Part shown: in pieces, positions 1 to 15,108 of the stretch
Layout of the letters: each line of letters begins with the position of its first letter
Position numbering within the stretch: the first letter of the stretch is position 1
IMG/VR virus record: IMGVR_UViG_3300035158_000039
Location: 1 to 21,248 of that record
Source: a virus
DNA length: 21,248 nt
Reading direction: 5' to 3' (one strand)
Notes under the pieces: model-generated
Databases searched by the model: none
Seen by the model: only the letters and a program-made list of their open reading frames with translations
Told to the model about the DNA's origin: nothing
Made by a program: the position numbers and the translations under genes

Positions 1-2882
1 AACTCCTCACACCCACTAAAAGGTGAATCTGGGTCAGGAATTGCTCGTGGAGATTTTACCATATATGGGGCCCATACATAACAATAATATCCACAACCTG
101 CCTTCAAAGCTTCAATCTCAGCCTTTTTTGCCTGGTAAAATGCCCATGCAGAAGAAGCAGCACCAAAGGTATGACAGAAGGATGACATCAAAGACATACA
201 AGGTTGACCGCCCTTCAAACACCAGCAGGGTCCACCTATGCAGCCACCAAGAATCTTGCCTGAAGTTACTCCTGCCTTGTGTGGCATGACATACCAAACA
301 ATTACTTCGTAAATACACCCATCACCGTACTGCGGTTGTCCACAAGCAGTACGCTTCTTCTTCTTGTCAGAGTCACCCCCTGATTGTCCAGCCGCCGGTA
401 CATCTCCATTCATGGTTTGCTCAGTTTGTTGACGACTGGTTTTCTGAGCTAGTTTCAAAGCCTTAAATTCAGGTGCCTCTTCTTCAACATCCTCAAAATC
501 TGAGATTTCACAGAAGACGGTTAGCGGACCATCATCCAGATCAGATGGAAAACGATCACCACTTGTAAGAACAACGAAGTTCTCATCTTGTGTCGTATCG
601 CCTCCAGACAATATATGATCTTCTGGGGGCGTGACATTGAAGTCATAGCCAGGATCAGCCCATTCTGTTTCCTCATCCAAAGGCCAACGTCTGTACGCAG
701 CTTGCTCCGCAGGCCAGGCCCAGAAATAGGGCTCGGAATCCCCAGCACGAATTGGAGTCCATGCCTCAAAGTGCATGGTATTGTTAGCGTTATCAAACTG
801 TGCTTTTGTGATGACACATTTCACAGGTGTTGAAGAAAACTGTGGCAAATCCAACGTAATGCAATCAAACAAATCAAGATTAAGATGCTTGATCGGAGTA
901 TCAAACTCCACTATCTTCCAAGTGTGTGAACGTCGAATGAGCCAGAAGGTTGCTGACTTTAGGATCGTATCATAGGTATTCTGCGTATAGTAATCGTAGC
1001 TTTCTTCTTGGACACCATACTTGGGAACGTTGTGCTTGAGAATAATCTTTCGTACAACCTCATCATCATCCTCTATACCAGCTTCTCCATTTTGCCATGT
1101 GACAGAATGCTTTGTCACCAAATCTTCAGTAGGTGTGTAACTGACCTGAAACGTACCTACAAGAATATCACTGGCTTCTAATGTGCGAACAGAAGTGGGT
1201 TCTTTTGAGAGATACTTGATGAAGATAACATCATTTCTCACATAAACTGCACACCGAGTTTGATAGGCAATGTCCTGAATCAAATCAAGAATATTCATGC
1301 GTTCTTTAACCCAAAAATTTGTTGGGTAATTTGTCATATTGGCTCGAACAAGATCAAATGAATCTGTGTCGATTGTGAGATTGGTATACTTATTGACCAA
1401 CCATTCAATGATGTCAACCGGGTTTGGACCAATATCAGAAGTCAACGAGATATAAAGTTCATCATCCCAGTCTGAATCATACAAGCTGAGTTTCTTGTTC
1501 AAACCAATTTCAGTAACCGTATAACCATCATAGTCTGTCTCGTAGACTGTATAATAGTCAGACGGAACTTCAAGTAGTAGCTTTCTACCAGTTGGTTGTG
1601 ACTTGTATGCAGCTACGTGATTGATTGTTGCCGGAAGTAAGCTTACGATGTAAAGAATTTCAGCCTCATCTTCCAGGTATACATCGGTTCCTGGTGGAAT
1701 CCAGAAGAAGCTTGATGTTGGCATAGCATCATAGACAGCTTGAGATTCAGTCGGGCCACCTTCATACGCTTGCCTAAAGACTGGATCAGCGTCACAATCT
1801 TCTGGACACGTACATTCATTTATATCGAAATACCAAGCTGTACCTGTATCCGTTTCTTTCCAACAACCTGTCCAATAGGTTTCAACCAATCCAATAGAGC
1901 GATCGGCAACAGGCGCACATGCTACGTGTTCTGTTGTGTCGTATTCTGGGTGCTTTCGTTCTAAAACTCGAAACTGTGGCCCACTAAAGAAGCCAGTAAA
2001 TAATCCACCACCAATATTTAGAGTGATAGTTTCTTCTTGGGGAAACTCTTCACCACCACGAATGTTTAGGTACAAGTGCTCATAGGATTGTTGCTGTTCT
2101 AGCAAGTATTCCAAATTGCACATTTCCTCAAAACGGTATGTTACACACTCTAAGTCGGGTCCATAAGTATGTTCAGTTTGTTGTTCATACCCACCTTGTC
2201 CATCTGGTTGTAGCGTAGTCCTCTGCCCTGTAGATACGCTTGGACACTGAATATAGCATACTTGACAAATTCTGTCTGGCAACGTGAAGTCATGGATACC
2301 TTCACCATGCGTAATGATACCACGAAGCGGAGCCCGAACTTGAACAGCTTGCATGTTGCAAACTTCTCCAAAGACAAGGGGCCAAACTTTGCCAAAAGCT
2401 TCTTCCGGGATGCTTGCAAAATCACCTTCCTCCATTGAGAAGGCAACTTCAGTATCTTCCTGACGTGTTAATACATCAAATGAGAGTGTACGTTCCCCTT
2501 CATTCCAAATAACAGGACTGCTAATTTCACCTTTGAAGAGGAGAAATTTATGATTGACAGTAAGACCTTGAAAACCCTGATATACCCACACTGGACGCTT
2601 ATGAATGTCATAGGAATCCAAAAGAGTCTTCAGTTTACCGTCAATATCATCTAAGGTAATATTGATTTGTTGCGAATCGCTAGCACCGTCCACTTGGATT
2701 GCCATGTCAAAATTGCCTACCTGAATGATCCTTGGGTAAGGATAATCCAAGCCTGACAATTTCTGATCGGAGTACATGACGCGCGGCCCATCTTCAACCC
2801 ACTGTACTTCAATAATGAGCAGTGGTTCTGCGCCATGCTGTTGTTGCAAATTATCAATGATGCCTGAAGGAACGTCACGCAT
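1..2882 (-). CDS. Tail hub / tip protein, cysteine-rich, truncated by the window edge
   Basis: I translated this by hand from the ATG at 2882: 960 codons with no stop, running off base 1, so the C-terminus is missing. Its ATG overlaps the stop of the upstream gene (TAATG). Its position after the tape measure and small distal tail proteins fits the tail tip. Residues about 1-130 look like a beta-rich distal-tail domain (ITLDDIDGKLKTLLDSYD near 75-92). A KVWPLVFGEV motif lies at 165-174, typical of hub proteins of siphophages. Residues about 485-565 (DIIEWLVNKY, then ERMNILDLIQDIAYQ) resemble the Tal/gp27-like hub core. Cysteines are unusually many: 206, 209, 213; 322, 340, 357, 359, 363; and ten between 847 and 958. 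A Lys-rich linker (KKKKR, about 840-844) precedes the last cluster. The family assignment rests on context and motif memory; the open frame itself is certain. Confidence 0.8.
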   Translation of the reverse strand, partial: MRDVPSGIIDNLQQQHGAEPLLIIEVQWVEDGPRVMYSDQKLSGLDYPYPRIIQVGNFDMAIQVDGASDSQQINITLDDIDGKLKTLLDSYDIHKRPVWVYQGFQGLTVNHKFLLFKGEISSPVIWNEGERTLSFDVLTRQEDTEVAFSMEEGDFASIPEEAFGKVWPLVFGEVCNMQAVQVRAPLRGIITHGEGIHDFTLPDRICQVCYIQCPSVSTGQRTTLQPDGQGGYEQQTEHTYGPDLECVTYRFEEMCNLEYLLEQQQSYEHLYLNIRGGEEFPQEETITLNIGGGLFTGFFSGPQFRVLERKHPEYDTTEHVACAPVADRSIGLVETYWTGCWKETDTGTAWYFDINECTCPEDCDADPVFRQAYEGGPTESQAVYDAMPTSSFFWIPPGTDVYLEDEAEILYIVSLLPATINHVAAYKSQPTGRKLLLEVPSDYYTVYETDYDGYTVTEIGLNKKLSLYDSDWDDELYISLTSDIGPNPVDIIEWLVNKYTNLTIDTDSFDLVRANMTNYPTNFWVKERMNILDLIQDIAYQTRCAVYVRNDVIFIKYLSKEPTSVRTLEASDILVGTFQVSYTPTEDLVTKHSVTWQNGEAGIEDDDEVVRKIILKHNVPKYGVQEESYDYYTQNTYDTILKSATFWLIRRSHTWKIVEFDTPIKHLNLDLFDCITLDLPQFSSTPVKCVITKAQFDNANNTMHFEAWTPIRAGDSEPYFWAWPAEQAAYRRWPLDEETEWADPGYDFNVTPPEDHILSGGDTTQDENFVVLTSGDRFPSDLDDGPLTVFCEISDFEDVEEEAPEFKALKLAQKTSRQQTEQTMNGDVPAAGQSGGDSDKKKKRTACGQPQYGDGCIYEVIVWYVMPHKAGVTSGKILGGCIGGPCWCLKGGQPCMSLMSSFCHTFGAASSAWAFYQAKKAEIEALKAGCGYYCYVWAPYMVKSPRAIPDPDSPFSGCEE

Positions 2883-3265
2883 TACTCAGCCTCCTCAAAT
2901 TCCAGAGTAATGTCCATTGTCTCCCCTCCGGGAAAATCAACAGCACGTCCACTGCCAGCGTGCTCAAATGGATTATTGATTAGATACCCAATCCATACGT
3001 CATCATTGTGGTCAGTTACTTGAATCTGCACTCGGTAGTAGGCATTTATGAAAGCTCGTAACTCAAGAGCCTTGTGGCGTGCAATCGTGAAATCCCACTG
3101 CAATCGTTTCCTTCCATCCTTGGTATGCACGTAAGTATATGCTGTTCCATCCATTGCTCGTAACACTTGAAGTGTGGAAGCAATCCCTGATGAATCACCC
3201 CAATTAGGACTAGGGAGAATGACAGTTGACTGCATTGCTGGATAGGGGGCACGTAACATAAGCAT
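2882..3265 (-). CDS. Small distal tail protein (127 aa), putative
   Basis: This is a complete 127-codon gene. Its ATG at 3265 overlaps the preceding TAA (TAATG), and its own TAA overlaps the ATG of the hub gene, so the three genes are probably translationally coupled. The protein is beta-rich with no signal peptide or membrane segment. The central part has KRLQWDFTIARHKALELRAF followed by a Trp-Ile-Gly-Tyr strand, and it ends with MDITLEFEEAE. The same order (basic strand, helix with AL/EE..F, D..W.G strand, closing ITxEFE strand) appears in residues about 345-438 of the neighbouring 506-residue protein, so the two probably share a domain. Position between tape measure and hub suggests a distal tail (Dit-like or tail-tip adaptor) role. 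That role is inference. Confidence 0.75.
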   Translation of the reverse strand: MLMLRAPYPAMQSTVILPSPNWGDSSGIASTLQVLRAMDGTAYTYVHTKDGRKRLQWDFTIARHKALELRAFINAYYRVQIQVTDHNDDVWIGYLINNPFEHAGSGRAVDFPGGETMDITLEFEEAE

Positions 3266-4785
3266 TATGGTGACTCCACTGTTTCTACAACTTCATCTGT
3301 CATTACAAGTGTGTCCGACAGACTTCGTGGAAATTCAACCCAACGTTGCGTCCAAGCTGTCCATTCAATTGTATCCGTGAGTGAACGTGATTTGTGGAAG
3401 TAGTGAGAAAAACTGTCTGTTATTGTCATGGCATTCCCAGACGGCATTTCCTCAACCATCAATCCTTCAAATTCAAACGTAATGGTGAATCCATGCTTAC
3501 CATCCTGTACAGCACGTTCATTAGGTGTAGTGATGATACCCACCCATTGGCGGCCTTCCCAATCAATGATTCCGATTTCTTGACCAATATGGTCTACCAT
3601 GAATTGTTGTGTTTCTTCAACCTCTACTTTTGTCAACCCAGAGAAACTAAGTACAAGCGTATTGATCTTAGGCCATGTTGGATCAGCAAAGATAGAAAGC
3701 TTTCCACCACGAGTTTCACGATTGATTCGCGTGAAGGATTGTCGCTCTCTGTTATCCAAGTTAGGTGCTCGAAGTTCTACAATATCGGTAGACTCGCCTA
3801 AAGCTGGATACAGTAACAGAAATCGTTCACCTTCTGAAAGTCCTTGAGCAAAGGGAACATCGCTATCAGGCGGTGTAGGGCTATCGGTTACATCACTCTC
3901 TCCAATGAAAGGTGTGTATGCTTTGTCATCGCAAGGATCAGGTAGATAATATGTGAGTGAATGTCCGATACCAAGAGTATCAATGACAGCACGAGACCAA
4001 TCCCCACTTAAATCGACTGTGTGTTCCAAGTTCAACCATTGAGCCGGGATACCTTTCGTCTTGCCCCAGTCAAGACTTTGAACCAAGCTCATGCTAGTTG
4101 TAGGAGTTTCACTACGCCACATATCCTGAGTCAAGGACATAGTTGATGAAGCAGTAGCCTCATAAACACGCCCAGTCCAGTCTGAAAATATGATGGTATC
4201 TTCCAATTTCTCAAAGTAATCTTCGTATGGAAAACCATCATATAAGTGCATCCTTGTCCACATAGTTTTGTATCGTGGACCAATTTCATTTACACTATCA
4301 CTCATTACCATATCACTAATGAGTATAAAGAAAAGCCCAAGCTCAAAATCAAACCCATCAGTCATAGCAAGAGTTTCGTGTAATGATGTATGCTCACCTT
4401 CATTGACAGGGTAGGAAAGGATTTCGGAAAGATTAAGATTGTCAGTAAGGCTCTTTGTTTGAACCCGAGAAGCAATATCTTCCAAATCTAAATCTTGTAA
4501 TAGTGACTCACTAAACTGAGCGGGAACACGTTGAGTAAGCGTCATGGTATCTTCTAGGCGTTCATGTCGCTCCCACAAACGAAGCTCATCAGTGATGCCA
4601 AGATTTTGGGTCAAGGTTTTCTCGTGAATAACGAAAGCCAGCGCAAGCACTTCAATGTACTGCCGTGTGACACGAAGCTTACCTTCACCTGAGCCAAGAA
4701 CTTCAGCCATCTGGCGCGTGACGCGCAGTTTACCTTCTCCTGCTCCCAGGACTTCACCAAACTGTCTCGTTACCCTCAGTGCCAT
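3265..4785 (-). CDS. Repeat-rich distal tail protein (506 aa)
   Basis: The ATG at 4785 follows the last paralogue's stop (TAACATG) with an AAGGTAGG ribosome site upstream. The N-terminus (residues 3-50) has three 17-residue repeats of the form LRVTRQxxEVLGxGEGK; the third is cut short. Residues about 55-310 and the last 70 residues contain degenerate units of the type SLTDTLxLTD, for example KSLTDNLNLSEIL, TSLHETLAMTDGF, EKLEDTIIFSD and RSLSDTLVMTDEV; I count about fourteen. Between them, residues about 345-438 form a compact domain (DWEGRQWVGIITTPNE, ending FTITFEFEG) that resembles the downstream 127-residue protein. This suggests a virion protein with a tail-docking domain flanked by extended beta-type repeats, possibly a fibre or host-contact protein. 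I recognise the RVTRQ repeat as recurring in phage proteins but know no function for it. Confidence 0.75.
   Translation of the reverse strand: MALRVTRQFGEVLGAGEGKLRVTRQMAEVLGSGEGKLRVTRQYIEVLALAFVIHEKTLTQNLGITDELRLWERHERLEDTMTLTQRVPAQFSESLLQDLDLEDIASRVQTKSLTDNLNLSEILSYPVNEGEHTSLHETLAMTDGFDFELGLFFILISDMVMSDSVNEIGPRYKTMWTRMHLYDGFPYEDYFEKLEDTIIFSDWTGRVYEATASSTMSLTQDMWRSETPTTSMSLVQSLDWGKTKGIPAQWLNLEHTVDLSGDWSRAVIDTLGIGHSLTYYLPDPCDDKAYTPFIGESDVTDSPTPPDSDVPFAQGLSEGERFLLLYPALGESTDIVELRAPNLDNRERQSFTRINRETRGGKLSIFADPTWPKINTLVLSFSGLTKVEVEETQQFMVDHIGQEIGIIDWEGRQWVGIITTPNERAVQDGKHGFTITFEFEGLMVEEMPSGNAMTITDSFSHYFHKSRSLTDTIEWTAWTQRWVEFPRSLSDTLVMTDEVVETVESP
4636..4779 (-). repeat. Three 51-nt coding repeats (RVTRQ units)
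   Basis: Three head-to-tail units lie inside the 506-residue gene at 4779-4729, 4728-4678 and 4677-4636 (the last shortened to 14 codons). Each encodes LRVTRQ, two variable residues, EVL and, in the first two units, G(A/S)GEGK. The units use different synonymous codons for the same residues (for example for Arg, Val and Thr), so the protein repeat is conserved while the DNA has diverged. Confidence 0.85.
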
Positions 4786-4786
4786 G

Positions 4787-5827
4787 TTATCCTACCTTTA
4801 CGCCAAACGCTGCGTTGTTGATCCCGCTCTCCGTCCAAAGAGCGCTGGTATCAGGGTCAAGTTCCGCAATACGACGAAGTGTAAGCCAATCACCGCTGCC
4901 CGCCGCCTGTGGTGAATCATCATATTCAGTACCACCAGACTTGATAACGGTGATTAGTGTGAAATCGGTTGCGTCAGTTTCCTTGCAATCAGTGTTGATT
5001 TGGAGCCCCTGAATCTGCCCAAATGTTGGAACACTGCCATAGTTCCAAATGTCACGATCTCCACTATCATCATCTTCAATGTAGCTGGAGTCATCATCAA
5101 CTTCTTCTTCATCAACAGCTTCATAATGAGCACCAACAGGCACCACTGTCTCCCAATCCGCTGTTACATCTCCACCACCGGGGAAGATTGCTGATACTCG
5201 TTGATTGCCGAGGAAGTCATTATTCTGGGCTCCAGTGCTATCACAAATGTAGAGATCATCCCAGTAAGGAACAGAATAATTGGAAGGATTGAGTCTAACA
5301 ACATCATGATAGTCACCACTTAGACTACCATCTTTTGTATCCACTCCTGTTGCACTGGCGACTGTAATACCGTCTACTTTGACTTCGTATTCACCATTGG
5401 TATCATGGCATTTTACCTTGAACTCAACGTGATGCCACATGTCAACACCAATGTTGGCACCAACAGTTGTATCAATGACTGTACCGTCACGCATGACATA
5501 GATTTCGGACCCATTATCAACAACCTGTAAGTGCATACCACGGAATGAGCCTTGATAGAAGTCAACAATTGGTATCCCTCTAGTATTGGTACGTTTAACT
5601 GCAACACCAACGATCAAAGTATCATCAGTTGTCAATCCTGGAGTTGCAAGCCTACAAGTGCTATGAGCAAATGAAATAGCACGACCACTAAATCGACCAT
5701 CACGAACCCTCATCCTGGATTCAGAATTGACGTTTGGATACTTACGTCCACAGATACCTGTGGGTGCAGGAGCAGCACCAACAGTGGTTCCATAACCTTC
5801 AAAGCCATCAATCCAGAGAAGTGCCAT
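4787..5827 (-). CDS. Lectin-like tail protein, paralogue 5 of 5 (346 aa)
   Basis: This is the last copy in the tandem array. It begins MALLWIDGFEGY and ends GVKVG. Residues about 1-205 look like a concanavalin A/LamG-type jelly roll: the TTDDTLIVG strand, a W.HVEFKVKC strand pair, an EVKVDG strand, then the array signature DDLYICDSTG followed by NNDFLG. The C-terminal part has the acidic motif VDDDSSYIEDDD, an IKSGGTEYDD strand and the closing W..SGINNAAFGVKVG. Two cysteines shared by all copies (in FKVKCHD and YICDSTG) are present. The ATG overlaps the previous stop (TAATG), with AAGGTGG inside the previous gene's last codons. The likely role is glycan or surface binding on the tail; this is inferred from fold resemblance and position. 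Confidence 0.75.
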   Translation of the reverse strand: MALLWIDGFEGYGTTVGAAPAPTGICGRKYPNVNSESRMRVRDGRFSGRAISFAHSTCRLATPGLTTDDTLIVGVAVKRTNTRGIPIVDFYQGSFRGMHLQVVDNGSEIYVMRDGTVIDTTVGANIGVDMWHHVEFKVKCHDTNGEYEVKVDGITVASATGVDTKDGSLSGDYHDVVRLNPSNYSVPYWDDLYICDSTGAQNNDFLGNQRVSAIFPGGGDVTADWETVVPVGAHYEAVDEEEVDDDSSYIEDDDSGDRDIWNYGSVPTFGQIQGLQINTDCKETDATDFTLITVIKSGGTEYDDSPQAAGSGDWLTLRRIAELDPDTSALWTESGINNAAFGVKVG

Positions 5828-6882
5828 TAGTCCACCTTTACACCAAATTGAGCCGAATTGATTCCTGTCTTAGTCCAATCTATTCCTGTGTCGGGATCAG
5901 ATTCCAGAAGATCATATCGGTTGACAAATGACGATGAACCAACAAGTTGACTTGCTTGATCGTATTCAGTCCCACCTGATCGAACAATCTGAATAATGTC
6001 AAATGTTGTTGCATCTGTTTCGCGGCAAAGAGTATGTAGCATGAGACCATCAATTGATACAAGAGAATCAGTGATGTCGCCATATTCAAAGATGTCTTTA
6101 TCACCAGCATCATCATCCTCAATGTATGATGTGTCATCATCTGGTTCTTGTTCAGCAACGGCATCAGCATGATCGGAACCACCAACCATTGTTTCCCATT
6201 CAATAGTATGTTCAGCACTGGGGAAAATTGGAACAGCTTTAACGATACCTAAGAAATCGTTATTCTTTGATCCAGTACCATCACAAACATAGAAGTCATC
6301 AAATACAGGACCATGACTCACACTATGCAAGCCTACGGCCGCATGATAATTGGAACTTCCTTCCTGTGTATCAATACCAGTATCACTGGCAATAGTTTCA
6401 CCATTCAATCGTAGCTCGTAAGTTCCGGCTGTATTGTCACAGTAGACTTTGAACTCAAGTTGAAACCATTGATTGATACATGGTAGTAATGGATTATCAA
6501 TTGTTTCAAGAATGTTTGCCCCACGACGAATTTGAAACTTTGTACCTGCTCCAGGATCAGGGTTAATTCGTACATTCATTCCAAGACTACCATCACCATC
6601 ATAAAATCCGAATAGAGTCTGCGAGCCTGTGGAAGTTCGTACAAAGTAAATTGAAGCTCCAATAATCAATGTTCGATCCGTTGTTAAAGGTGGTGTTTTG
6701 ATGTAAGGATCACCATCATGGAATAGTCGAAGAGCGTAGTTACCGAAACGTCCCGGCTTAAGAAAATAGCGAGTTCCACCACCACCTGCATGAGTATATC
6801 CACGTATTTCAAGGGCCGTGCGCATATCAACGCCATAGCTTGATTCATAACCTTCAAAACCATCTACCCAGATAAGTGCCAT
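5827..6882 (-). CDS. Lectin-like tail protein, paralogue 4 of 5 (351 aa)
   Basis: The start is taken at MALIWVDGFEGY (ATG 6882) because all copies begin this way and this ATG overlaps the previous stop with AAGGTGG just upstream; the frame stays open 17 codons further but would overlap the previous gene. The jelly-roll features are present (TTDRTLIIG, LEFKVYCDNTAG, YELRLNGETI, FDDFYVCDGTGSKNNDFLG). The C-terminal 106 residues (from EPDDDTSY) match those of the upstream copy at about 77 positions in my hand alignment, while the first 230 residues match far less. This makes copies 3 and 4 the closest pair. It probably forms part of the distal tail or a receptor-binding surface; no catalytic motif is visible. 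Confidence 0.75.
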   Translation of the reverse strand: MALIWVDGFEGYESSYGVDMRTALEIRGYTHAGGGGTRYFLKPGRFGNYALRLFHDGDPYIKTPPLTTDRTLIIGASIYFVRTSTGSQTLFGFYDGDGSLGMNVRINPDPGAGTKFQIRRGANILETIDNPLLPCINQWFQLEFKVYCDNTAGTYELRLNGETIASDTGIDTQEGSSNYHAAVGLHSVSHGPVFDDFYVCDGTGSKNNDFLGIVKAVPIFPSAEHTIEWETMVGGSDHADAVAEQEPDDDTSYIEDDDAGDKDIFEYGDITDSLVSIDGLMLHTLCRETDATTFDIIQIVRSGGTEYDQASQLVGSSSFVNRYDLLESDPDTGIDWTKTGINSAQFGVKVD

Positions 6883-7946
6883 TAGTCCACCTTCACACCA
6901 AATTGGGCTGCGTCGATTCCAGTTTTTGTCCAATCTAATCCTGTATCAGGATCAGATTCAACAACATCATACTTGTGAACATACGATGAAGAGCCTACTT
7001 GTTGGCTAGGTTGATCGTATTCTGCCCCACCTGAACGAACAATTTGAATGAGATCATAGTATTGAGCATCTGTTTCTCGACAGAGTGTATTTACCATCAC
7101 TCCAGCAACTCGACCCAAATTCTCTGTGATATTGATATAGTCAAAGATGTCCTTATCACCAATATCATCATCCTCAACATAGGATGTATCATCATCAGGT
7201 TCTTGCTCATCTACAGCATAGGAATGGGTTCCAGCTCCAACAACTGTATCCCATTCAGTTGTATGGTCAGTATCAGGCCATGTTGGTACAACTCGCATGA
7301 CTCCAAGGAAGTCATTATTCTTCGCACCAGAACCATCACAAACATAGATGTCATCAACCCTTTGCACACAGTAATTTGTATTCCATCGAACAGATTGATG
7401 GTAGTTAGTAAGGCTTGCCTGCGTATCTACGCCACTAGCGCTCCCAATTGTATTTCCATTAAGTCGTACTTCCCATGAACCACTTGTATCATCACAATAA
7501 ACTTTGAACTCAATGTAGAACCATTCATCAATTGGAAGTTCAATGCTTGTAATTGTCTCAAGAACTACATTACCACGCCAAACTTCAATGTAGTATCCAG
7601 TATCATCAACGCGAAGGTGCATCCCTTCTAGGAAATCACCATCATATAATGAGACAATACGACCATTTCCGGCTCCATTTCGTACATCCCAGTAAAGAGC
7701 ACAACCTGTGATTAAGGTTCGATCTGTTGTTAGTGATTTGGTTTCAAACCAAACATCAGTTCCAGGATAAAACTCTACCGCATACCCACCAAATCGTCCC
7801 TCAATTGTCTGCATATGACCATTGATTAGGCTACTTGTTCGTAAGTAGCGACGACGAATGTTCTTTTCTAGGTCTTGATTATTCCACCAACCTGGTAAAT
7901 AGCCAGATTGTAAACCTTCAAAACCTTCAACCCAGAGTAGTGCCAT
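6882..7946 (-). CDS. Lectin-like tail protein, paralogue 3 of 5 (354 aa)
   Basis: It begins MALLWVEGFEGL and ends GVKVD. It carries a longer N-terminal variable segment than its neighbours (GYLPGWWNNQDLEKN region, residues about 15-30). Conserved landmarks: TTDRTLITG, DEWFYIEFKVYCDDTSG, WEVRLNGNTI, VDDIYVCDGSGAKNNDFLG, the acidic EPDDDTSYVEDDD, IVRSGGAEYDQ and DPDTGLDWTKTGIDAAQ. The ATG at 7946 shares a base with the upstream TAA, and the SD (AAGGTGG) lies in the upstream copy's last codons, so expression is coupled to that copy. The ConA-like fold is my reading from strand pattern and motif resemblance. Confidence 0.75.
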   Translation of the reverse strand: MALLWVEGFEGLQSGYLPGWWNNQDLEKNIRRRYLRTSSLINGHMQTIEGRFGGYAVEFYPGTDVWFETKSLTTDRTLITGCALYWDVRNGAGNGRIVSLYDGDFLEGMHLRVDDTGYYIEVWRGNVVLETITSIELPIDEWFYIEFKVYCDDTSGSWEVRLNGNTIGSASGVDTQASLTNYHQSVRWNTNYCVQRVDDIYVCDGSGAKNNDFLGVMRVVPTWPDTDHTTEWDTVVGAGTHSYAVDEQEPDDDTSYVEDDDIGDKDIFDYINITENLGRVAGVMVNTLCRETDAQYYDLIQIVRSGGAEYDQPSQQVGSSSYVHKYDVVESDPDTGLDWTKTGIDAAQFGVKVD

Positions 7947-9001
7947 TATCCCACCTTCACCCCAGCTTGAAGATTATCTACGTCGTCACGTATCCATGCG
8001 ACACCTGTAACAGGATTGAGTGGCATCAATCGTGTAAAAGCAAGATAGTTACTATTCCCAACATACTGGCCGGCATCTTCACTTTCTGTTATGTAGTCAT
8101 GCTTAATGACTGTCTTCAATGTTCTTTCAGTAGTTCCAGTAACCCTTGCTTCACTATGAACTTGAAGTCCCTTAATCTCATTCATTGTAGGTGGACTATC
8201 ATAATGGTAAAGATCAAGGTCGTCCGTTGTAACACTTTCCACGTATTCGGTATCATCCTGCACCAATTCATCAACGGCAGCATAATGATCTGGACCAGGA
8301 GTTACATCCCAATCTGATGAATCGCCTGCTGACGATGGTATAAGTGGTTGTACCATGTGTCCTGGTCCAAGGAAATCATTACATGGTGCTCCACCTGTTG
8401 AATCACAGACCCAGAAATCATCGAAGCGTGGTGATTGTTCCCAGATGTGCGTGATACTTTGGAAACGAACGGCCGCATAATAATCGTGACTTGGATCGTC
8501 TTGAGTATTGATACCTGTCAACGTGAGTTCAGTTGTATTGTCCACTCGAAGTTCAACTGTACCACTTGTACCATCACAGTAAACTTTGAGTTGAATAAAC
8601 TTCCACTCATCTAAAGGAAGCACTCCTGCCGCTGTTGTTCCTAAAACAGTCCAACCACGAAGAACACTGAAGGAACCATCACTATTGAGTTGTAGTTGTA
8701 ATCCTACATAATAGTTGTTAATTGTTCTAAGAGACATGAAGATTCCATTCCTTGACTCGTCCTGGTACATTGAAAATCCAACAATCAATGTTTTATCAGT
8801 TGTCAAGTATGGAGTTTGAAACCAATGTGAGGCATCCCAAAGAATGGAAATTGAGTAACCTTCAAATCTGCCTGGTCTTGCTGCAATGTTAAGATTACCG
8901 TTTCCAGCTAGCTGGTAACGGCATAGCATGATTTGTCGTGGATCGACATAGCCAGAGTCGTCCCCATAGCGGTCGAATCCATCAAACCAAAGTAGAGCCA
9001 T
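7946..9001 (-). CDS. Lectin-like tail protein, paralogue 2 of 5 (351 aa)
   Basis: It begins MALLWFDGFDRYGDD and ends QAGVKVG. It is the most divergent copy in the C-terminal half: the acidic motif is VQDDTEYVESVTTDD, and the SGG(T/A)xYD strand of other copies is replaced by KHDYITES. The lectin-like half is intact (TTDKTLIVGFSMY, FIQLKVYCDGTSG, VELRVDN, FDDFWVCDSTGG, then NDFLG with an extra Cys, APCNDFLG). The ATG at 9001 overlaps the previous TAA, with AAGGTGG supplied by the upstream gene's last codons. It is probably another virion adhesin-like subunit; its partner and ligand are unknown. Confidence 0.75.
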   Translation of the reverse strand: MALLWFDGFDRYGDDSGYVDPRQIMLCRYQLAGNGNLNIAARPGRFEGYSISILWDASHWFQTPYLTTDKTLIVGFSMYQDESRNGIFMSLRTINNYYVGLQLQLNSDGSFSVLRGWTVLGTTAAGVLPLDEWKFIQLKVYCDGTSGTVELRVDNTTELTLTGINTQDDPSHDYYAAVRFQSITHIWEQSPRFDDFWVCDSTGGAPCNDFLGPGHMVQPLIPSSAGDSSDWDVTPGPDHYAAVDELVQDDTEYVESVTTDDLDLYHYDSPPTMNEIKGLQVHSEARVTGTTERTLKTVIKHDYITESEDAGQYVGNSNYLAFTRLMPLNPVTGVAWIRDDVDNLQAGVKVG

Positions 9002-10026
9002 TAGCCCACCTTTACACCCATTTCAAGACCATTGACACCACTCACAGCCCAATCTGTACCCGTATCAGGATCATCAGCCATTAGGCGTAAATTGGTTAGA
9101 TACTCAGTGCTGCCAATAGTATCAGCAGCACTATCATACTTTGTTCCGCCAGATTTGACGACTGTTTTCAAATCATACGATGTAACATCTGTGACTCGAA
9201 CTTCAGTACAAAGACAAACAGCCTCAACTATGTCAAGGTCTGAAATGTCACTATATTCATAGATGTCTTCATTGTCTGTCACAGTATCTTCAACGTATTC
9301 ACTATCATCATCAGGATCAACTTCATCAACCAAGGTATAGTGATCTACCGCAGCACTGGGCGTCCAATCAATGTCGGCTGTGTCAGCATTAGGCCAGATA
9401 GGACTAATTCTCTGTTGACCAAGGAAGTCATTGTGCTTTGAACCTGTGCTATCACAGATGTAGTAATCATCAATGTGTGGTGTATAGCTTGCACTATATT
9501 GATAACCACGGATGAAAACTTGATCGTGATATGGTTGATTCTGTTGTGTATCAATCCCTGAATCTGATAGGATGGTTTCTCCATTGATGCGAAGTTCATA
9601 GGAACCATTTGTATTGTCACAAACAACCTTGAATTCAACATACACCCATTTATTTGAGCGTATCAAAATCTCAGTTGATTCTGCTATGATAGAACCGCCA
9701 CGATAGACACGAACTACTCCTGAATCATCAACTCCAATACCCATCCCCTGTGTACCTTCACTTAGCATCCAGAAGAAATGACAGTTATTGGGTATACCCC
9801 AAAATCTCAAAGCAAATCCAACAATCAGTGTATCATCTGTTGTAAGTACAGGAGTTTGAATCCAAGAACTTGTGTAGTGTGGAACCAGGGAGTAACCACC
9901 AAAGCGACCTGATTCAAGTCTTATTCGACTTGAACCAACAGCATAACGACGTGCTACAACACCCTGGCAATCTACATTCCAGGCATCGTCATAACCTTCA
10001 AAGCCGTCCATCCAAAGAAGTGCCAT
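9001..10026 (-). CDS. Lectin-like tail protein, paralogue 1 of 5 (341 aa)
   Basis: This is the first copy transcribed. The frame is open up to 10080, but the start is taken at 10026 (MALLWMDGFEGY), matching all other copies. Upstream sequence would run into a terminator hairpin. An AAGGTAGC site precedes tandem ATGs at 10029 and 10026. Residues about 1-205: TTDDTLIVGFAL at 62-73, EFKVVCDNTNG at 131-141, YELRINGETI at 143-152, DDYYICDSTG at 186-195 and NDFLG at 199-203. C-terminal part: DPDDDSEYVED at 237-247, VKSGGTKYD at 290-298, GVKVG at the end. This copy has extra cysteines (CLC at 271-273). It is likely a tail-associated glycan-binding protein, by fold resemblance only. Confidence 0.75.
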   Translation of the reverse strand: MALLWMDGFEGYDDAWNVDCQGVVARRYAVGSSRIRLESGRFGGYSLVPHYTSSWIQTPVLTTDDTLIVGFALRFWGIPNNCHFFWMLSEGTQGMGIGVDDSGVVRVYRGGSIIAESTEILIRSNKWVYVEFKVVCDNTNGSYELRINGETILSDSGIDTQQNQPYHDQVFIRGYQYSASYTPHIDDYYICDSTGSKHNDFLGQQRISPIWPNADTADIDWTPSAAVDHYTLVDEVDPDDDSEYVEDTVTDNEDIYEYSDISDLDIVEAVCLCTEVRVTDVTSYDLKTVVKSGGTKYDSAADTIGSTEYLTNLRLMADDPDTGTDWAVSGVNGLEMGVKVG

Positions 10027-10094: not shown

Positions 10095-10577
10095 TTAGCC
10101 GCTGACCGTGTAAGTGATCTTCAGCGTGTCACCATTCTGAACCGAAACAGGCGAACTGAACAGAGCCGTAGACCACAGAATACCAGTCGTGCCGGTTTCT
10201 TGATCTGTGACAAAGATACCCCGTAGAGTTGCCGTACCAGTGATATTGAAGTCAGCCGTGGTTCCGTTCGAGATTGAACGACCAGCGGCCGAGCCAACAA
10301 CCCACTGCTTTCGATTTCCACTATAATCAGTGTTTTCTGACCAACCAGCGTGCGAAGCGAGTGTGTCACTCGGGTCCACACCAGAATAACCAGAATTGTC
10401 AATCAGGCCAATGTACCAAAGAGCGTGCTGTGTGTCATTTCCAAAATGCACATCAAGCAAGTCATTCATGCCCTGATCCGTAATGCCATTAGGTACGCGG
10501 TAGACACCAATGAGCTTCCCAGCTTTATTCCGGTGCTCAATGAAGTAGTAACCGCGCAGAGGAAGTCGAGTTCTCAT
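10095..10577 (-). CDS. Fibre- or lectin-like virion protein (160 aa)
   Basis: The start is ATG 10577 with GGAG eight bases upstream (10586-10589); a TTG start at 10616 would include a structured leader and is disfavoured. The protein begins MRTRLPLRGYYF and is beta-rich throughout. Motifs such as NGITDQGMNDLLDVHF, WYIGLIDNSGY, DTLASHAGW, GIFVTDQETG and the closing GDTLKITYTVSG match a family I recognise as frequent in phage tail and virion modules, often labelled tail fibre or structural protein. No catalytic residues or membrane segment are evident. It sits alone between a structured leader and a strong hairpin, as the capsid and tube genes sit before theirs, suggesting high expression. Its exact place on the particle is unknown. 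Confidence 0.75.
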   Translation of the reverse strand: MRTRLPLRGYYFIEHRNKAGKLIGVYRVPNGITDQGMNDLLDVHFGNDTQHALWYIGLIDNSGYSGVDPSDTLASHAGWSENTDYSGNRKQWVVGSAAGRSISNGTTADFNITGTATLRGIFVTDQETGTTGILWSTALFSSPVSVQNGDTLKITYTVSG

Positions 10578-10598
10578 GTCTCTTTCTCCATTTGCTTC

Positions 10599-10679
10599 GC
10601 GGGCTTTGCCTTGCAAACACCAGTGTTGGGTATCATAACGGAAAGCCCGCTGGGTTCCGTGCAGCCCTTACTACACTGG
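10599..10679 (-). promoter_or_regulatory. Structured leader with interleaved inverted repeats
   Basis: In minus-strand order the elements are CCAGTGT (10679-10673), GCGGGCTTT (10650-10642), ACACTGG (10626-10620) and AAAGCCCGC (10607-10599). The first pairs with the third (7 bp) and the second with the fourth (9 bp), giving a 1-2-1'-2' order, which is pseudoknot topology. The last arm ends 10 bases before the GGAG ribosome site of the 160-residue protein gene. Function is inferred: translation control, mRNA protection, or an attenuator after the tape measure gene. Confidence 0.5.
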
Positions 10680-10689
10680 CACTTTTCAC

Positions 10690-13600
10690 TTAGTAAATTC
10701 TTGCTGTCTTCCTTTTGAGTTCTCGTCGTAAACCAGACGCAATCTCTCGAATTGTCTGGCTTGAATTGTCGCCTCCCTGCACTGTCACGTTGATGTCGCC
10801 GATATTTGTCACCGCACCACCTTGGTCACGGTAGATCGGCTGCTGCCCCGCGTTGATTGCTTGCAACTGCGGGAAGAAGTTACGTGCTGCACGGGCGTTC
10901 ACTACGAACTCGCCAGGCGTCAGCCAAGCTGGGATACGATCCGTCCCTCGGCCACCATCCTGGAAATAACGCCCTCCGTGAGCCGCTCCTACGCCCCCTC
11001 CTGCACATGCTGCCGCAGCCCGGGCACAAGCTTGGGCAGCGGCTATCGCCGCCTTAGCGGCATTCTGCATGGCCTGAGCAGCATTTCCAGCCGCCGTAAC
11101 AGCGCTTCCTATTGACGTTGTAACATTGTCCCAGGCAATCTTCAAGTTGTCAGTGGACGTTTTTGCATTGTTTAGCGACGTGATAAGGTTTCCAACTGCC
11201 ACATTGGCGATGTTCACCTGTTCAGTAACCGGCGCGAAAGCATTACCAATACCGATGGCAGCTTTCTCGGCTGTGACAAGCGTATCGCGCAATTGCACCG
11301 CTGCCTGCGAAGGTACACTCATCGCTTCAGCTAGGACTTTCGTAGAGGTTACAATTGCATTGTATTTCTCATTGACTGTGCCAAGCTCAGATGAAAGCCT
11401 ACGTGCAGCTTCAAGCTGTTGTTGTAACTCTTCCAGTGAGATTTCTCGTGGGGCTGCTGGCTCAGCAGGCGCGCCCGGTTCTCCTGGTGCAGCCGCACCT
11501 TCCCTAGCAGCCGCGATCAAATCTTTCTGTGCTTGAGTTGCACCTTGAAGCTCTACCTTGAGTTGTCGTGCTTGTTCAGTCTCAGTAGAAAGGGATTGTG
11601 TTGCTGTTGTTGCAACACCTGGAAGTGCTACTTGAGCATTCTTTGCATCTTCTAATGCTTGCTTTGTTTCACCAGCTTCCGTTGTCATTCCCTCCTGAGC
11701 AGCTTTAGCTTGTTCAGCACCTTCCTTTGCACCATCCAAAGCCTCAATTGCTTCCTTGTAAGGTTCTTCTAACTTCATCTTTTCTTGAAGATCATCAGAA
11801 GCTTTGATGGCAGCATTTCCAGCCTTGAGGATTCTTTCGTAGGCTGCAACACCTTGATTACCCATATTACGGGATAGCTCACCATTTTCTTGAAGTTCAA
11901 CACCGTATTCCTTAATGGCATTGATAGCATCTCTCTGAGCTTCTGTCAACGGCTTTTGCTGAGCTACTGCTTCTCGAATAGCAACAGCAGCATCAAACAA
12001 TTTCTTCCGTAAAATATCAGCTTTAGAGGCATTAACCTCCATGATACTGCCAGCCTTTGAAGTATCTCCAGCCGCTCTTTCATAGGCATTAGAGATAACT
12101 TCACCACCTTTAGACAAGTTATCCCTAAACTTATCCCACCAATTGAACCATTCATCATCTTGCAGTTTCTTTGTAGCTGCAATGACTTCTTTAAAAGCCG
12201 CTTCATTATCTTGCTGGATAGACTCAGTAAGGTCTTCATACTTAGTCTTGATACCTTCAAGAACCTCCTCCATCTGAGCGCCCATCTTACCTGGGTCTTT
12301 CAGAGGATCAATCTCTCCAAACCTTTTGACGAACTCCTCAATGATATGCTCATTGACAATTTCAAGTTTAACCGGAGCCGTGAATGTTCGAGCTTGAAGC
12401 TTTCCTTGGAACTCGTTGATAACTTGATCCCAATTGATTTTAGCATCCTTCAAAGCATCAAGAACACCTTGCTTCAATTGACCCATTGCGTCCCCGATAC
12501 CAAGCTTTTCATACATGCTGAAGTCAAAGGCAGCATCAAGCTTCTGCTCGATTTCGGGCATCATTGCGACTACCCGCTCGAAATCTTCACGCATTTGCTT
12601 TGGACCTTTCAACTCACCCTTCTCGAATGGGGCCAGCAATTCTTTTGCCTTCTTTAGAAGCTGCTCTAGGGCTTTACCCTCAGCCTCAAGCTGTTGAAGA
12701 CGTTCTTTATGCGCTTTAGATTGATGCTTTTTACGTTCAATCTGGAATGAGATTTCTCCTCTGATTCGATCACCACGAACCTTGTCAAGTTCATTCTCAG
12801 CACGCCTCAAATCTCCGTAATTTCCAAGCTCTTCAGCATGAGACACAGCATCTTGTGCTCGTTTCTCTGCCAAGTGTGACAATTCACGGGCCGCTCGTGC
12901 TGCTTCTTCATTAGCACCAGCATCAGCATAAGCTTTTCGAGCTTCAGCAGCCGTTCGTTGAGCCCGTTCAATCTCAGCCCACAACTGCTGCCGTGCGCTC
13001 ATGTGTCGCTTTTCACGCTCAAATGCGGTATCAGCAATTGATTGTTGAGTTGAAGCTACTTCCTCCATCGACTCTTTGATGGCACTATCAGCTTCAAGGA
13101 TCGTATCCTTGAGTGCTTTGATTGCATCCTGTCGTCTTTGTAGCAAGTTATCAAGGGTTGACTCAAGAGTCTTTCCTACAGCCTTACTTGAAGCTTCCAG
13201 AATATCGAAGTCTCTTCGATATTGTTTCGAGGCTTCTGAGAAGAACTCACCAGTAAGTTTACGACGTTCTTCAAATTCCTTGCGAGTAGCAGCAATACGC
13301 TTTTGGGTTTGAAGTTCGTGCATCCTTGTTAGCTGTTCTTCATTTCGACTTGCTACTTGCTCCAATTCAGAAACAGTATCAAGAGAAGCGCTAATCCATT
13401 CACCAATTTTGATTGCTGCCATCGCTGCTCCAATGGCAAGAATAATTGGAGCAATGGTAAGCAAAGCAGCACCCAAAGCCGCAGCGGCCCCAGCGGCACT
13501 TGATAGAGCACCTGTCAAACCGATGGCGGCAAGCTTCATACCAGCAAGACCTGCGATTGTTCCTACTGCAATCGCCTTGAGAAGGTCCATGTTGCGAAGT

Positions 13601-15108
13601 ACAGCATCCAATGCCTTGACCATTGGTGTTGTAATTTCGAGCAACTTCTGCCCGACTTCAATCATGGTATTGCCAAGGTTGTTCCATGCTTCTACCGCTT
13701 GCCGACCTACTGAACTTCGCATCTCTTCAAGAGCTTTTCCAGTAGCACCAGCGCTATTTTCCATAGCCTCCAAAGCTTCAGTTAGCGCATTGGCTTCATT
13801 AGAAGTCAGGTTTAAGGCACCAACCATAGCTCGAACACGACCGAGCAAATCAGCAAATTCCTTGTCATTACCGGCAGTGGCGTCCTTCATCTTCAATAGG
13901 ACACCTTGCAAACCACCAAAACGTCGAATGGCTTCTGGACCTGTTTCTACACCCCATTCCTCATAGAGTTCTTGTAGCTTTTGAGTAGGTCGCAAAAGCT
14001 TCTGAGAAACCTGGGTCAGTTGAGTGATGGCGGTATGGGCTGGAACACCCTTTTGAGTCATGGCAGCAAGTGCAGCCGCCATTTCCTCATAACGAATTCC
14101 AAGAGCCGCTGTCAACGGTGACACACGACCGAGAACATCACCAAACTCACTTAGACGCAAACGACCAAGCTCAATCGTCTTGAACAATACGTCAGATACA
14201 TGCGCTGTCTCAGCTACATTGAGATTGTAGCTATTCATTACAGATGATATAGCATTTACTGATTCTCGTAGTTCAGAATTAGTAGCAATAGACAATCTGG
14301 CCGCTTCATTTGTAAACCTTAGTGCATCACCAGCTTCAACAACTTGGTTTGACAAAGTTTGGTATACACCTTCAGCAATTTCCTGTCCAGTTAATCCAAG
14401 ACTCCGACTTAACTCTAAGACAGAAGCATTCATCTGATCCATCGAGCCAAGCTGCCCACCAGAAATTGTGAACGCTTCAGCGACAGCTACAGAGAACTCT
14501 GCTGCTGCTGTTTGAGCATCTTTGAAAGCACTAACAATTGCGCTAATAGCGCGCACAATTAGTTGTGCCTGAACAACTCGAAGAACAGTCTTCCAGGAAA
14601 TTGTGATTGTTTTAGCGGCATTTTGTCCCGCCTGACCAGCATTATTTAACGCGCCCGCCGCCTGTCCGGCTGCCGCAGCAGTTTGTGCCGAACCTTGTTG
14701 TACGGCTCCCGCTGCCTGTCCGGCTGCCTGTCCTGCACCCTGCATTGATTGAGCAGCTTGATTGAAAGAACCAGTAACCGCTGTTCCAACTTGTTGGGCA
14801 GCAGCTTGTGACCGCGTAGCAAGACCACCCATTGAAGCAGCAGCCGTCTGTGCTGAAGTTTGTAGCTGCTGTGTTGGTGCTCCAGCCGTTGCTAGACCTT
14901 GAACAGCCGCTCTTGCATTATTAGCTTCCAATGCAAGTTGTCTCAATGCTTTGATCGCTGGCGTAGCATTACCAGGAAACTTGCGCAGAGCGCCAGATAC
15001 GCTTTGTAAGGATTGCTTGAAATTGTTAAGCTCTCCTCGCAAGCGACCCAATTCTTGGATAGCCTTTGACGCATCAAAGCCTAGTCGCTGTGTAATTTCT
15101 TCCGGCAT
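10690..15108 (-). CDS. Tape measure protein (1472 aa)
   Basis: This is the longest gene and sets tail length. At the usual 1.5 angstrom per residue it would correspond to a tail of roughly 220 nm. Layout: an N-terminal helical part; an Ala/Gln/Gly-rich stretch (about 100-170); a TP901-type tape measure core (about 195-390, AAEFSVAVAEAF to TQKLQELYEEWGV); a hydrophobic Ala/Gly/Ile-rich segment (about 507-570), probably membrane-active; long charged coiled coils (about 575-1240); and a C-terminal motif GGRGTDRIPAWLTPGEFVVN (about 1378-1398) typical of tape measure proteins. The ATG shares a base with the upstream stop (TAATG). It is assembled with the chaperone encoded two genes upstream. No lysozyme or peptidase motif was noticed. 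Confidence 0.95.
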   Translation of the reverse strand: MPEEITQRLGFDASKAIQELGRLRGELNNFKQSLQSVSGALRKFPGNATPAIKALRQLALEANNARAAVQGLATAGAPTQQLQTSAQTAAASMGGLATRSQAAAQQVGTAVTGSFNQAAQSMQGAGQAAGQAAGAVQQGSAQTAAAAGQAAGALNNAGQAGQNAAKTITISWKTVLRVVQAQLIVRAISAIVSAFKDAQTAAAEFSVAVAEAFTISGGQLGSMDQMNASVLELSRSLGLTGQEIAEGVYQTLSNQVVEAGDALRFTNEAARLSIATNSELRESVNAISSVMNSYNLNVAETAHVSDVLFKTIELGRLRLSEFGDVLGRVSPLTAALGIRYEEMAAALAAMTQKGVPAHTAITQLTQVSQKLLRPTQKLQELYEEWGVETGPEAIRRFGGLQGVLLKMKDATAGNDKEFADLLGRVRAMVGALNLTSNEANALTEALEAMENSAGATGKALEEMRSSVGRQAVEAWNNLGNTMIEVGQKLLEITTPMVKALDAVLRNMDLLKAIAVGTIAGLAGMKLAAIGLTGALSSAAGAAAALGAALLTIAPIILAIGAAMAAIKIGEWISASLDTVSELEQVASRNEEQLTRMHELQTQKRIAATRKEFEERRKLTGEFFSEASKQYRRDFDILEASSKAVGKTLESTLDNLLQRRQDAIKALKDTILEADSAIKESMEEVASTQQSIADTAFEREKRHMSARQQLWAEIERAQRTAAEARKAYADAGANEEAARAARELSHLAEKRAQDAVSHAEELGNYGDLRRAENELDKVRGDRIRGEISFQIERKKHQSKAHKERLQQLEAEGKALEQLLKKAKELLAPFEKGELKGPKQMREDFERVVAMMPEIEQKLDAAFDFSMYEKLGIGDAMGQLKQGVLDALKDAKINWDQVINEFQGKLQARTFTAPVKLEIVNEHIIEEFVKRFGEIDPLKDPGKMGAQMEEVLEGIKTKYEDLTESIQQDNEAAFKEVIAATKKLQDDEWFNWWDKFRDNLSKGGEVISNAYERAAGDTSKAGSIMEVNASKADILRKKLFDAAVAIREAVAQQKPLTEAQRDAINAIKEYGVELQENGELSRNMGNQGVAAYERILKAGNAAIKASDDLQEKMKLEEPYKEAIEALDGAKEGAEQAKAAQEGMTTEAGETKQALEDAKNAQVALPGVATTATQSLSTETEQARQLKVELQGATQAQKDLIAAAREGAAAPGEPGAPAEPAAPREISLEELQQQLEAARRLSSELGTVNEKYNAIVTSTKVLAEAMSVPSQAAVQLRDTLVTAEKAAIGIGNAFAPVTEQVNIANVAVGNLITSLNNAKTSTDNLKIAWDNVTTSIGSAVTAAGNAAQAMQNAAKAAIAAAQACARAAAACAGGGVGAAHGGRYFQDGGRGTDRIPAWLTPGEFVVNARAARNFFPQLQAINAGQQPIYRDQGGAVTNIGDINVTVQGGDNSSQTIREIASGLRRELKRKTARIY

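Follow-up and report, generated by a model that had tools for sequence, protein, structure and literature searches.

Five tandem paralogues of a putative lectin-like tail protein with dual-coding junctions in a tailed phage and variable copy number among its relatives

Five paralogous genes, placed head to tail in the tail region of a phage, may encode a set of separate binders, the subunits of one structure or proteins of another kind, and the question is which of these the locus considered here represents and how its number of copies is set. Both a modular receptor repertoire and a hetero-oligomeric tail structure had been proposed in a preliminary description of the locus, which is located in a DNA stretch of 21,248 nucleotides, hereafter the window. 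The analysis presented here suggests that the array probably encodes five specialised paralogous tail-tip adhesins of two domains each, with coupled translation and a number changed by recombination.

Organization of the Array and Its Neighbourhood

The window comes from an uncultivated tailed phage and is a fragment of 21 kb, in which the main genes are located on the minus strand in the following order: scaffold, major capsid, connector/neck genes, tail-tube candidate, tape measure, g173, c1–c5, g506, g127 and g960. The array c1–c5 (4787–10026, minus strand) is represented by five homologous ORFs, head to tail, between the tape measure gene and g173 on one side and a tail-fibre-J-like gene on the other, i.e., in a tail location, as characteristic of PHROG 2448. 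The following genes were annotated:

10690–15108, minus strand: tape measure protein (phrog_991, E 3.4e-40)
10095–10616, minus strand: g173, upstream of the array, weak match to podophage fibre protein gp80
9001–10026, minus strand: c1, first array gene, 341 aa, predicted ConA-like N-domain and beta-rich C-domain (phrog_2448, E 1.5e-37)
7946–9001, minus strand: c2, second array gene, 351 aa, the most divergent copy (phrog_2448, E 4.3e-34; AlphaFold model)
6882–7946, minus strand: c3, third array gene, 354 aa, sister of c4 in the tree (phrog_2448, E 7.2e-38)
5827–6882, minus strand: c4, fourth array gene, 351 aa (phrog_2448, E 4.7e-38; AlphaFold model)
4787–5827, minus strand: c5, fifth array gene, 346 aa, in the tree nearest to the single-/triple-copy type of L004, L018 and L033 (phrog_2448, E 2.5e-29)
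3265–4785, minus strand: g506, downstream of the array, N-terminal RVTRQ..EVLG repeats, start served by the ribosome site at the c5 end (TAACATG)
2882–3265, minus strand: g127, conserved flank gene of the tail region
3–2882, minus strand: g960, running off the window, flank marker, weak match to the central tail fibre J family (phrog_31, E 9.5e-6)

Pairwise amino acid identity of the five proteins is 35–53%, all pairs are alignable end to end, and c4 matches the other four copies with E values of 1e-58 to 1e-117. The spacerless row of five paralogues, as first described, was borne out by the ORFs, the one-nucleotide overlaps between them and this whole-length homology. All five proteins match nearly the whole profile of PHROG 2448 (“unknown function”) with E values of 2.5e-29 to 4.7e-38. 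No significant match was obtained for the array proteins in Pfam, and a sequence search of PDB gave nothing above background; no match was found at the DNA level among known phages, and protein comparison of the capsid and g960 revealed no close phage match.

The N-terminus of g506 contains one to three copies of a repeat of about 18 residues, LRVTRQ..EVLG.GEGK, present in the window, L002, L003, L014, L018, L034, L024 and other relatives. The idea that the number of these repeats tracks the number of array genes was dropped, as L034 has one array gene and three repeats.

Gene Junctions

All four internal junctions have the form GTR-AAG-GTG-GGN/GAC-TAATG, in which stop and start codons share one nucleotide and the ribosome site AAGGTGG is located within the Lys-Val-Gly/Asp codons. 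It had been claimed that these conserved last codons encode the C-terminal VKV(G/D) and, at the same time, the ribosome site of the next gene; this holds at every internal junction and agrees with codon usage. Among 32 overlapping junctions of the window and its relatives, 30 contain a Lys/Glu codon at this place and one more contains the Arg codon AGG. The Lys/Glu codon ends in G in 30/30 non-redundant family members having such a codon, as against 621 of 1367 Lys/Glu codons in the gene bodies (p = 8e-11). Lys, Glu and Arg replace one another at the junction codon, while the DNA letters AGG persist. The codons that form the ribosome site are genuinely constrained in both roles. In L039, the genes are separated by spacers and have their own GAGGTG-like sites, and three internal gene ends are off the motif (AAA CTG, CTT TTG and AAG TTG).

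The end of c5, GTA AAG GTA GGA TAACATG, is of the same type and precedes the unrelated gene g506. Accordingly, the built-in ribosome site is not limited to junctions between copies, and dual coding is a general device of translational coupling in this operon. As the ribosome site of each next gene is located in the last codons of the preceding one and the stop codon overlaps the start codon by one base, c1–c5 would be expressed from one message with tightly coupled translation, presumably in equal stoichiometry.

The junctions are among the best-conserved DNA of the array and form four 110-nt patches, 62–85% identical to the reference and spaced by about 1055 nt:

8964–9073, minus strand: junction patch c1/c2 (repeat D1, about 110 nt), with the c1 end containing AAGGTGG, TAATG and the c2 start
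7909–8018, minus strand: junction patch c2/c3, repeated patch
6845–6954, minus strand: junction patch c3/c4, repeated patch, 85% identical to the c4/c5 patch
5790–5899, minus strand: junction patch c4/c5, repeated patch

Predicted Fold and Divergence of Domains

AlphaFold models of c4 and c2 (mean pLDDT 90.4 and 91.7) have identical strand order and consist of an N-terminal concanavalin-A-like jelly roll, followed by a beta-rich C-domain. Among the PDB matches of the N-domain, Foldseek identified the calreticulin lectin domain, CBM66, legume lectins, GH131 and alginate lyase, with modest TM-scores of about 0.5–0.6, normalised to the target; full-length matches in the viral library BFVD were phage proteins of unknown function. 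The lectin-like character proposed earlier is thus supported by the models and the ConA-like PDB matches, and unrelated folds were not seen in the two proteins modelled. By its predicted jelly-roll beta sandwich, the N-domain belongs to the ConA-like lectin/glucanase fold. The jelly roll is also common as a non-lectin scaffold.

Comparison of the window with L002 showed 64–90% identity of the array proteins and 89–98% identity of the flanking g173, g506, g127 and g960. Identity of the N-domain and the C-domain, respectively, was 65 and 94% in c5, 67 and 86% in c4, 79 and 90% in c1 and 58 and 73% in c3; the exception is c2, with 92% in the N-domain versus 86% in the C-domain. In every computable domain comparison with L002 and L003, dN/dS did not exceed about 0.36; the divergence is accordingly attributed to relaxed constraint or to exchange, and no positive selection is demonstrated. 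The dN/dS value of g173 against L002 conflicts with the 96% amino acid identity of this protein and was disregarded as a calculation error. In the comparison with L002, c5 alone showed a significant difference in synonymous rate between N- and C-domains (p 0.008), and this difference was not relied upon. The N-domain is probably the part contacting glycans or the cell surface, and the adhesins are probably glycan-binding, with the sugar presumably bound by the jelly roll; the more conserved C-domain is probably the part responsible for assembly, which would dock the protein on the tail.

Two residues of the jelly-roll domain, Cys 148 and Cys 200 of c4, are nearly conserved, both being present in 39/61 family members; they may form a disulfide. 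Between near relatives, the tape measure protein is much less conserved than its neighbours (35% identity with L003 over 990 aa, compared with 94% for the tube gene over the part present).

Copy Number in Relatives

The flanks common to the relatives are the tube gene, g181, g171, the tape measure gene and g173 upstream, and g506, g127 and g960 downstream. Between these same flanks, one copy was found in L004 and L033, two in L005, L014 and L042, three in L018, and five in L001, L002 and L003, and the counts of array genes in whole contigs agree with those at the locus. The earlier suggestion that the array can expand or shrink is therefore in line with the series of 1, 2, 3 and 5 copies. L004 and L018 are near neighbours in g960, with a branch distance of about 0.12, yet have one and three copies, respectively. 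The 99% identical contig L001 contains the same five genes in the same order. Among more distant phages, the number of copies ranges from one to six, with four in tandem in L041. The five tandem copies of L039 are located at 4157–9394 of a 94-kb contig (G020), with a sixth elsewhere in it.

Sister copies within one contig were found in the tree for L026, L028, L039, L043 and L044; thus, tandem expansion took place more than once, and the array of the window would likewise have arisen through tandem duplication. Two two-gene blocks of the family, about 2 kb apart, are located at 7024–13401 of L026 and resemble a duplicated block, the first gene grouping with the third and the second with the fourth. 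A hybrid gene expected from unequal crossover was sought by comparing the single copy of L004 with the three copies of L018; the comparison gave a patchy mosaic with no clean breakpoint.

Phylogeny and Exchange of Array Genes

In the tree of the array family, built from 64 sequences, genes c1–c5 of the window, L002 and L003 form position-specific clades with 100% support, and their order is the same in all three phages. Genes c1 and c2 represent an old pair, also present in two-copy phages, and c1 falls into a clade with the position-1 genes of seven other phages. Genes c3 and c4 are sisters confined to the five-copy phages, and c5 belongs to the single-/triple-copy type. Trees of the N-domain and the C-domain, built separately, recover the same position types, and no swaps of these domains between positions were detected among c1–c5. 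The five old types, the fixed order and the concordance of the domain trees indicate that the copies are specialised and not freely interchangeable.

In the g960 tree, L014 falls outside a clade that unites the window with L002 and L003 (support 98/97). This topology is rejected by the c1 data (AU p 1.1e-8); conflict with the flank tree is borderline and not significant for c2 (AU p 0.051) and not significant for c3 (AU p 0.31). On the evidence of these trees, the first gene, c1, is an exchanged gene, transferred between phage lineages into the same position. In the original proposal the genes were self-contained cassettes; the repeated DNA patches at the junctions and the exchange of c1 agree with this, while interchangeability of the copies is not supported. 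Recombination breakpoints had been expected at the VKV(G/D)-TAATG junctions; they were looked for, and none was mapped exactly to such a junction, so that recombination at the junctions can only be inferred.

Interpretation of the Array

Each copy may bind a different glycan, the array then broadening the host range and the junction repeats allowing binders to be gained and lost. The copy-number variation, the exchange of c1 between lineages, the faster divergence of N-domains and the repeated DNA at the junctions are consistent with such a repertoire, but there is no free exchange between positions and no positive selection was seen, which leaves it a plausible reading with a somewhat less than even chance. 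Its cassette variant, with the junction patches (C-terminus, ribosome site and start) serving as recombination points and whole adhesin genes gained, lost or replaced with translation intact, would give a modular repertoire differing in size between near relatives; this variant is possible but doubtful. The types could instead be fixed by contacts within one tail-tip assembly, the five proteins being its obligate and non-equivalent subunits. The constant order of the five types in the three phages with five copies and the lack of position swapping agree with such a hetero-oligomer, as does the tight translational coupling, which suggests matched amounts of the products. However, one, two or three copies suffice in relatives that share the flanking tail genes; hence an architecture of this type does not generally require five, and the obligate hetero-oligomer is rather unlikely.

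Enzymes degrading surface polysaccharide are improbable as products of the array: the ConA-like fold is common to alginate lyases and glucanases, and polysaccharide lyases and glycoside hydrolases are among the PDB matches, but the best matches are a mixture of lectins and carbohydrate-binding modules, and no Pfam enzyme family was matched. The repeated sequence at the junctions might also point to a diversity-generating or phase-variable cassette system actively rearranging the copies. Such a system is very hard to reconcile with the data, as the array contains no inverted repeats and no near-identical template/variable pair, its direct repeats are diverged homologous patches, and the 99% identical L001 keeps the same five genes in the same order; the scanned proteins of the window, itself a contig fragment, included no identified reverse transcriptase. 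The reading preferred here is that of specialised tail-tip adhesins. Recombination between phages would add, remove and replace members of the array at a single constant site in the tail module, and the position types c1–c5 would nevertheless remain distinct.

For an unannotated, widespread phage family, this provides a concrete and testable role, that of a lectin-like adhesin of the tail tip. The relatives represent a natural series of copy numbers at one locus, which makes it testable whether adhesin copy number sets host range, and the dual-coding junction illustrates a way in which genes may be gained and lost by a phage without disruption of translation.

Comparison with Known Phages

The Caulobacter phage phiCbK has a single full-length homologue, gp103, beside the tail genes, as against five in the window; gp103 was absent from the eight virion proteins detected (PMC3556154), which counts against a virion location. 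The preceding gp102 weakly resembles the RVTRQ protein g506 (E 0.003). ConA-like lectins, CBM66 and the calreticulin lectin domain share the predicted jelly roll of the N-domain without sequence similarity above background.

In Achromobacter phage AchV4 (Casjensviridae), AchV4_0025 and AchV4_0026 are tandem homologues of the array genes, and AchV4_0027 is a relative of the C-domain. LC-MS/MS of virions revealed 22 peptides of AchV4_0025 and 14 of AchV4_0026 (PMC7996906). These homologues support the earlier assignment of the array products to the tail, and the proteins of the window phage would likewise be present in its virion. AchV4 differs from the window in having two proven virion copies, short spacers and a distant sequence.

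The family was found at 457 places in 163 phage records, with three places in most records listed. The three phrog_2448 genes that follow the tail module in chi-like phages were interpreted as carbohydrate-binding and possibly receptor-recognising (PMC9409062). The initial statement that phages usually carry one or two such genes does not fit these data: records of Casjensviridae usually contain three, and SPN19 and JS26 have four or five family relatives in a row, partial ones counted. In some public records of this family (e.g., KR296689.1 and MN840486.1; UniProt A0A0N7CFK4), the names “short transient receptor potential channel” and “histone-lysine N-methyltransferase” occur, which look like annotation errors.

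Similar to the window, Casjensviridae (SPN19 gp40–42, JS26 gp50–54, Chi and SeF2) contain tandem PHROG 2448 paralogues downstream of tail genes, and adjacent paralogues on the same strand, five in the window, are shared with SPN19, JS26 and AchV4. However, identity to the window is only about 25%, and in Casjensviridae most of the genes follow a short spacer and have a separate ribosome site, whereas those of the window overlap by one nucleotide. The array of Casjensviridae follows a long tail protein, in a context of tail assembly chaperones and a J-like protein before the array, while that of the window is located just after g173, with other flanks and order. Copy number is nearly constant at three in Casjensviridae and varies among the relatives of the window. 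Three-gene tail arrays are thus already known from Salmonella chi-like phages, and the array of the window is an expanding and shrinking version of them.
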